Assembly (NCBI RefSeq): GCF_000311845.1
Contig: NZ_HE978574.1
Coordinates: 1,269,248 to 1,333,247 of the forward strand
Direction of reading: 5' to 3'
Length of the DNA stretch: 64,000 nt
Origin: Enorma massiliensis phI
GTDB taxonomy: Bacteria > Actinomycetota > Coriobacteriia > Coriobacteriales > Coriobacteriaceae
Shown: positions 4,247 to 43,852 of the stretch, piece by piece
Layout: each line of letters opens with the position of its first letter
Numbering within the stretch: position 1 is the stretch's first letter
Program-made: the position numbers and the translations under genes
The notes under the pieces: model-generated
Told to the model about the DNA's origin: nothing
Database searches by the model: none
What the model saw: the letters and a program-made list of their open reading frames with translations, nothing else

Positions 4247-4332
4247 TGACTCACAGACACCGGGTGTCTGTGAGTCATTTCCGGGTGTCTGTGAGTCATT
4301 TGAATCGCCAACACCGGGTGTCTGTGAGTCAT
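4247..4332. repeat. Palindromic repeat cluster, GACTCACAGACAC family
   Basis: Between aroB and pepP. A perfect inverted repeat of 14+3+14 (TGACTCACAGACAC / GTGTCTGTGAGTCA, 4247-4277) overlaps two exact tandem copies of a 21-bp unit (4260-4280 and 4281-4301, starting CCGGGTGTCTGTGAGTCA). A third copy at 4314-4332 is preceded by a different half-site, GAATCGCCAACAC. A related element is at 24491-24519. No coding function. Confidence 0.9.
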
Positions 4333-11472: not shown

Positions 11473-11729
11473 TGGGCGCATTCCGGACGGCCCGGGCCTC
11501 TCAGGCGTCTTCTGGACGCTGCCACTGTCTTCGGGCGACATTCGGACAACCGCGGGCTTCTCGGGCGACATTCGGACAACCGCGGGCTTCTCGGGCGACT
11601 TTTGGACACTAAGCAGTCGAAAAACGTACCAAAGTCGCCCGAAAACGAAATGAGTGTCCAATTATCGCCCGAGAACGAGGATGCGCGCTGATTGTGCCAG
11701 AACACAGAGAGAACGTCCGAATGTCGCCC
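11473..11729. repeat. Repeat cluster, GGGCGACATTCGGACA family
   Basis: Between ruvX and the PTS operon. Two exact tandem copies of a 30-bp unit (11531-11560 and 11561-11590) that begins TCGGGCGACATTCGGACAAC, plus a partial third (11591-11608) and two diverged copies at 11473 and 11503. Three copies lie in the opposite orientation (11633-11641 partial, 11654-11672, 11714-11729). 11593-11640 can fold into a 12-bp stem. The open frame through it repeats PEKPAVVRMS only because of the tandem units. Confidence 0.88.
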
Positions 11730-11768
11730 AAAACAGAACGCGAGAGTGAAGCTCAAACTGAGCCCGAA

Positions 11769-14961: not shown

Positions 14962-15089
14962 GGCTCGAATCGGAAGGTTTTTGAGATCCGTAGAGCAGTC
15001 GCACCCCTCAAAATCACACGACCTGCGGTTTTGTGAATGCATTTGGGCTGACTACTCAGCGGGTCGACAAAAACCTTCCGATTCGAGCC
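14962..15089. repeat. 128-nt element with 22-bp perfect terminal inverted repeats
   Basis: Upstream of alaS. The left arm begins GGCTCGAATCGGAAGG (14962-14983) and the right arm (15068-15089) is its exact 22-bp reverse complement; the 84-nt interior is non-coding. The interior contains GTAGAGC 6 bases inside the left arm and GACCTGCGGTTTT at its centre, both also found in the element at 43626-43763. No obvious target-site duplication. Could be a small non-autonomous mobile element or a structured RNA. Confidence 0.8.
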
Positions 15090-15132
15090 CTGAACGTTAC
15101 GCGACTTGGCAAATGTCGCCCTAACTCGACTC

Positions 15133-33474: not shown

Positions 33475-33527
33475 AAAGTGCCCAAAAAGCATCTGGAGTA
33501 CCCAAGGATGCAGGTTTTGGGCACTTT
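33475..33527. repeat. Hairpin repeat, AAGTGCCCAAAA family
   Basis: A perfect 13-bp inverted repeat (AAAGTGCCCAAAA at 33475-33487, complement at 33515-33527) closes a 27-nt loop that has its own GCATC / GATGC stem. Same family as 33562-33701 and 43626-43763. Confidence 0.85.
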
Positions 33528-33561
33528 GAAGCCCAAAGCCGCAGCCTGTCCACTCCAAGAT

Positions 33562-33701
33562 TCAAGTTTTGGGCACTTCCGGACAGAACGTCAAAGTACA
33601 GACAAAAAAGCCTTCAAAGAAAGAGCAGCTCAGACAGCACGTCCCTTTCGCGAAATGAAAGGGCTACTCTAGATGAGCGACCGGAAGTGCCCAAAACTTG
33701 A
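33562..33701. repeat. 140-nt element with 21-bp perfect terminal inverted repeats
   Basis: Arms 33562-33582 and 33681-33701 are exact complements (core AAGTTTTGGGCACTTCCGG), with a 98-nt non-coding interior. On the minus strand the interior begins with GAGTAG-CCCTTTCAT, similar to GAGTAGAGCCGCTTTTGCAT in the element at 43626-43763, which carries the same type of ends. The rest of the 404-base gap before DUF523 holds only the hairpin at 33475. Confidence 0.82.
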
Positions 33702-43590: not shown

Positions 43591-43625
43591 GAGGGCCCTT
43601 GAGGCACTCACTTCATCTGCAATTG

Positions 43626-43763
43626 CAACTTTTGGGCACTCCAAGCCACTGCGCGTAAGTAGCCAGGCAGGCAACAGAATTAAAACCGCAGGTCAGGATG
43701 CCGGTGTCCTTCATGCAAAAGCGGCTCTACTCGTCGTTCGCTCGTTCAAGTGCCCAAAAGTTG
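43626..43763. repeat. 138-nt element with 15-bp perfect terminal inverted repeats
   Basis: Arms CAACTTTTGGGCACT (43626-43640) and its complement (43749-43763) bracket a 108-nt interior. On the minus strand the interior reads GAGTAGAGC near one end and GACCTGCGGTTTT in the middle, as in the element at 14962-15089, while the ends belong to the AAGTGCCCAAAA family of 33475-33701. It lies between merR and ffh and accounts for most of this 325-base gap. Confidence 0.8.
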
Positions 43764-43852
43764 AAACCGGGTTTCGCTCCGGAGAGGTAATCAGCGCTTT
43801 CTCCAGAAAAGGGGCCCGCGCAAAGCCCCTCTGGGCATAATCCGCAACGCAA

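Follow-up and report, generated by a model that had tools for sequence, protein, structure and literature searches.

REPIN/RAYT systems are built from REP doublets and a REP-associated Y1 (HUH) tyrosine transposase (PMC3116915, PMC8266576). The elements that we describe here from Coriobacteriaceae resemble them in several respects: two inverted conserved repeats and a spacer are dispersed in intergenic DNA, conserved inverted ends enclose a variable interior, dozens of copies are present, and a partner gene adjoins elements at a position that is orthologous between species. However, the partner is predicted to be an AbiEi-like/PD-(D/E)XK protein rather than an HUH Y1 transposase, the elements possess fixed inner boxes and an asymmetric core with helical spacing, and by inspection their arms are mostly not palindromic REPs, which are recognized as a palindrome with GTAG at its foot. 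As the partner is not the enzyme that defines REPIN/RAYT, the Coriobacteriaceae system is a variant of that class and not a member of it.

Like MITEs, the elements are short, non-coding and dispersed, with terminal inverted repeats; unlike MITEs, they keep a constant core while their ends change between genomes, and neither a target-site duplication nor a parent IS was seen. In Tn7, TnsA works together with the DDE transposase TnsB. The partner protein is predicted to share the broad fold of TnsA (PDB 1f1z), a PD-(D/E)XK nuclease acting in transposition, whereas no TnsB-like partner was identified for the Coriobacteriaceae nuclease. Its C-terminal domain resembles I-Bth0305I and other Vsr-fold nucleases (PDB 3r3p) in predicted fold and in its conserved acidic and histidine residues, but it is fused to an AbiEi-like domain, occurs as multiple paralogs, is tied to dispersed palindromic elements and, as far as seen, is not intron-borne. 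AbiEi (PDB 6y8q) and actinobacterial DUF559/MTES_1575 proteins may be related, to judge by an N-terminal alignment to AbiEi and sub-threshold Pfam matches; the abstracts of the papers found on these proteins describe no role with repeats. We found no literature description of the element family in Collinsella.

The starting point was a palindromic element in the window, the whole 64,000-nucleotide stretch of DNA analysed here. An earlier note had reported it at 14962-15089 with perfect ends, and its ends are indeed complementary at 22/22 positions (14962-14983 against 15068-15089) with 84 nt between them. It had further claimed an internal core shared with a second element. Within the window, exact copies of GACCTGCGGTTTT are confined to 15020-15032 (+) and 43682-43694 (-); three of its four occurrences in the genome lie within such elements. 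The second element is real, but the bounds proposed for it (43626-43763) are better drawn at 43623-43766; its arms are then 18 nt long, with 94% complementarity. The supposed recurrence of GTAGAGC proved to be a coincidence of register once both elements were aligned on the core: relative to the start of the box, it begins 1 nt earlier in one element and 4 nt later in the other. The true left boxes are TAGAGCAG in the window element and ACGAGTAG in the second. With a third element, the features are as follows.

14962..14983, + strand: left arm, A type, GGCTCGAATCGGAAGGTTTTTG; ends complementary
14991..14998, + strand: inner box on the left, TAGAGCAG (consensus CCGAGTAG); distance to the core, 29 nt
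15020..15033, + strand: central asymmetric core GACCTGCGGTTTTG
15052..15059, + strand: inner box on the right, CTACTCAG (inverted CCGAGTAG); distance from the core, 26 nt
15068..15089, + strand: right arm, also A type, the left arm exactly inverted
43623..43766, - strand: second element, in the long version, with B arms TTTCAACTTTTGGGCACT and 40 nt between left box and core
43681-43694, - strand: core of the second element, with boxes at 43727-43734 and 43655-43662
33562..33701, - strand: third element, in the long version, with B arms TCAAGTTTTGGGCACTTCCGG and, at 33618-33631, the diverged core GAGCTGCTCTTTCT

The window also contains other repeats. An array of inverted CGGGCGACATTCGGAC / GTCCGAATGTCGCCC with variable loops at 11530-11732 represents another palindromic repeat family, and a related TGTCGCCC stretch lies at 15115. 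Copies of TGACTCACAGACACCGGG / CCGGGTGTCTGTGAGTCA form overlapping near-perfect hairpins at 4247-4331. A short GTGCCCAAAA...TTTTGGGCAC pair at 33477-33528, beside a B element and without box or core, is perhaps a decayed copy.

All elements follow a common plan, in which an outer arm is followed by 10-12 nt, an inverted box CCGAGTAG, the asymmetric centre (G)ACCTGCGGTTTTG, the inverted box again and the other arm. The outer arms, about 20 bp long, are genome-specific, and the two arms of one copy match each other. BLAST searches of the source genome (G000, 2.28 Mb) recovered about ten further dispersed copies with the A arm (AAGTTCGAGGCTCGAGTCGGAAGGTTTTT), which is also that of both elements bracketing the partner gene, and many with the B arm (TTTCAACTTTTGGGCACTT), for which TTTTGGGCACTT has 60 exact matches. 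The elements are dispersed, with dozens of copies per genome in Collinsella and its relatives, in varied intergenic contexts. Two loci, L106 (G000:C1:496500-511000) and L039, contain N runs of a few hundred bases, and the view of the genome is therefore incomplete. A model of boxes plus core, without arms, found matches in 64/65 Coriobacteriaceae genomes, with up to 47 per genome; the exception was the single-contig genome G007. When 84,980 species genomes were scanned for exact matches to the core with boxes, ten Collinsella contigs and one Gordonia contig came up, the latter probably by chance. The constant core within changing ends that the earlier note had perceived is a genuine feature, joined to inverted ends in many more copies, and does not describe a plain MITE family.

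The internal distances follow a rule. The left box precedes the core by 29 nt in 26 copies and by 40 nt in 11, and the core-to-right-box distance is 25/26 or 36 nt. Among the 19 B elements with exact TTTTGGGCACTT on both sides, ten span 130 bp and seven 119 bp between these sites, with single copies at 120 and 128 bp. A step of 10-11 bp corresponds to one helical turn of DNA. The spacing is conserved even in copies with diverged interiors. Agreement between the two boxes of a copy is no better than after shuffling of partners (324 observed against 324.8 in 36 copies; 899 against 889 +/- 13 in 81 copies). The arms of one copy agree at 88% of positions, versus 70% when redealt within a genome and 39% when redealt across all genomes. 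Since the spacing is either fixed or extended by 10-11 nt and the boxes do not covary, the element appears, from these sequence statistics, to act as protein-bound DNA and not as a structured RNA. The earlier note had offered, as one of two options, a structured RNA with a freely varying closing stem, and the long matched arms in every species, their better match within copies than on within-genome shuffling, and the folding of single strands as long hairpins would suit it; nevertheless, it now appears very improbable, as the boxes lack covariation, the spacing is quantised, Rfam has no match to the elements, and the arms, unlike free stems, are near-identical among copies of one genome. Terminators were also rejected, since on inspection the T runs of the A arms lie towards the loop.

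Arm types are usually limited to one to three per genome. In several genomes they are alike in the outer half and unlike in the inner half; in G011, for instance, CCCCCGTTTA is followed by CGGTTCGG or GGGGACGG. By inspection the arms are mostly not self-palindromic, and GTAG lies inside the inner box.

Clustering of the ORFs near elements revealed that one gene family adjoins elements of different arms in several genomes. A profile built from five members detected it in 63/64 Coriobacteriaceae family genomes, and it was not found in G007, the genome that also lacks the elements. An element-like hairpin lies within 500 bp of the gene at 33 of 41 analysable loci, against about three expected from the hairpin density of the window (5 in 64 kb), with about ten of the 41 being close orthologues and hence not all independent. 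Every locus with elements on both sides (12/12) carries the same arms on the two sides. Other paralogs have no element nearby. In the source genome the gene (C1:274451-275551) sits between two A-arm elements, and the window element thus carries the arms of that gene. The arms beside the gene match dispersed copies of their own genome in 8/8 genomes tested, with a single weak cross-genome match, and protein similarity correlates weakly with arm similarity (Mantel r 0.22, 8/2000 permutations). No cognate gene for the B arms, the most abundant type in the source genome, was found among the six paralogs detected there. In the congener G001 the arms of the gene at locus L227 start with GCAACTTTGG and resemble these B arms.

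The locus of the gene is orthologous, by its flanking sequence, in G000, G002, G003, G005 and the aerofaciens group, with about 80-94% identity on one side and less conservation on the other; gene and arms have changed there much faster than the flanks, and the arms differ between these genomes. An apparent inversion of the gene between its flanking elements was an artefact of loci being fetched in contig orientation. The same arrangement recurs outside Coriobacteriaceae at L264 and L265 (core GACCTGGGGAAA, box CCGAAGTAG) and at L347 and L348. It is hence likely that the AbiEi-like/PD-(D/E)XK protein is the partner of the elements. AbiEi/DUF559-like nucleases in general give 1-18 matches per genome in 165/197 Coriobacteriales genomes searched.

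The partner protein is about 350-410 aa long, and its C-terminus has sub-threshold Pfam matches to DUF559/MTES_1575 and none to Y1_Tnp. In the predicted model (pLDDT 90), residues 204-323 align with the EDxHD homing endonuclease I-Bth0305I (PDB 3r3p; Z 9.9, 2.6 A over 95 residues), with lower-scoring fold matches to TnsA (Z 7.0) and Holliday-junction resolvases. A weak sequence-profile match to I-Bth0305I (E 1.1e-5) agrees with the fold, and D252, E267 and H274 are invariant in 24 proteins. Taken alone, the N-terminal part gave a single, middling match to the AbiEi antitoxin (PDB 6y8q; Z 7.1 over 116 residues). Foldseek alone returned no match at E < 0.001 for either model. From these models the partner is predicted to combine an AbiEi-like N-terminal part with a DNA-cutting PD-(D/E)XK nuclease of the Vsr/EDxHD type. 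Its dN/dS between orthologues of about 0.12-0.18 indicates purifying selection. Phages yielded no match to it and plasmids two weak ones, both from Collinsella.

Comparison of orthologous sites bears on mobility. All four congeners compared (G001-G004) lack the window copy at the orthologous intergenic site, where the stretch is 79-170 bp shorter (134 bp in G001) and too diverged for the exact junction to be placed. At another site (L130/L284; G035:C45:20517) an element is present in nine relatives, in either of two versions that share the outer half-arm and differ in inner arm and interior. The best candidate empty site is in G072, which at this position appears to lack the element and retains TTCGGAAG, a state also compatible with deletion; L130 was discarded as a clean empty site in most relatives, the region being rearranged there. 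Beside one gene, close species likewise carry elements with different arms. The suggestion in the earlier note of a cassette with exchanged ends fits the occurrence of differently armed elements at orthologous sites. No target-site duplication is visible in the flanks of about 45 copies, and in the genomes compared we saw no instance of transposition, no excised form and no cleanly duplicated target site.

Elements maintained by the host as binding sites for the AbiEi-nuclease-like protein, whether as operators or as chromosome-organising sites, would be expected to show equally low mobility; having arisen by past transposition, they would now be regulated, marked or protected by that protein rather than moved. 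The helical phasing and conserved spacing despite diverged interiors, the AbiEi-like N-terminal part, the orthologous copies kept between species and the elements flanking the gene, which could be autoregulatory, are all consistent with this. Dozens of copies in varied intergenic contexts, the invariant catalytic residues and the lineage-specific presence of the window copy nonetheless make it unlikely. A homing-type selfish gene, whose nuclease cuts sites resembling outer arms so that repair inserts a copy of the element or gene, would explain why elements are swapped at orthologous sites with a common outer half-arm and why the candidate empty site in G072 retains its sequence, and the closest solved fold is that of a homing endonuclease domain; but the dozens of unrelated target sites and the single candidate empty site render it more doubtful still.

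Terminal inverted repeats, a length of about 130 bp and dispersed copies are also what ordinary MITEs of a conventional IS would display, the nuclease gene then being a passenger between two copies. Such an accident could hardly yield elements flanking or bracketing 33/41 gene loci with arm identity gene by gene, or the joint absence of elements and gene from G007. A conventional IS suspected between distant B arms (C1:505-509 kb) was rejected, as the 14.5 kb stretch examined there holds only separate elements and ordinary-looking ORFs. At the loci examined, the one gene-bearing unit with the same ends was the nuclease gene set between two whole elements. We regard the passenger explanation as highly unlikely.

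On balance, the elements and their partner probably constitute a REPIN/RAYT-like system with an unrelated, nuclease-type partner, and we infer that this nuclease moves or copies the elements. The matching ends suggest that a mobile repeat is paired with a nuclease dedicated to it, a combination not described before. On this reading the element is a miniature, non-coding, non-autonomous DNA element, each end of which combines an outer arm, as the paralog-specific site, with the inner box CCGAGTAG, placed symmetrically around an asymmetric core by spacings that keep all sites on one face of the DNA helix. The predicted nuclease may form a compact complex with arms, boxes and core, and cut at the element. 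Elements with matching arms would then be copied or moved in trans, while the gene stays at its vertically inherited locus. Joint change of arm and enzyme would leave each species with its own ends around a constant core.

Against this reading stand the B arms that lack a cognate gene among the paralogs found, the paralogs with no element nearby and the lack of any observed mobilisation; nor do we know of a transposase of the PD-(D/E)XK Vsr-type fold that moves such elements by itself. Tentatively, the system might represent a new class of mobile DNA: a vertically inherited AbiEi-PD-(D/E)XK nuclease would disperse miniature palindromic elements in trans with no DDE, HUH, tyrosine or serine recombinase involved, and enzyme and arms would diversify together across Coriobacteriia. 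If so, REPIN/RAYT-like domestication of repeats by a dedicated enzyme would have arisen a second time, with an unrelated nuclease, and the matched arm-enzyme pairs from many species would offer a ready series for the evolution of DNA specificity. The association ties the poorly understood AbiEi/DUF559-like nuclease family to a concrete, testable DNA substrate, and accounts for a large group of repeats that lie between the genes of common gut bacteria.
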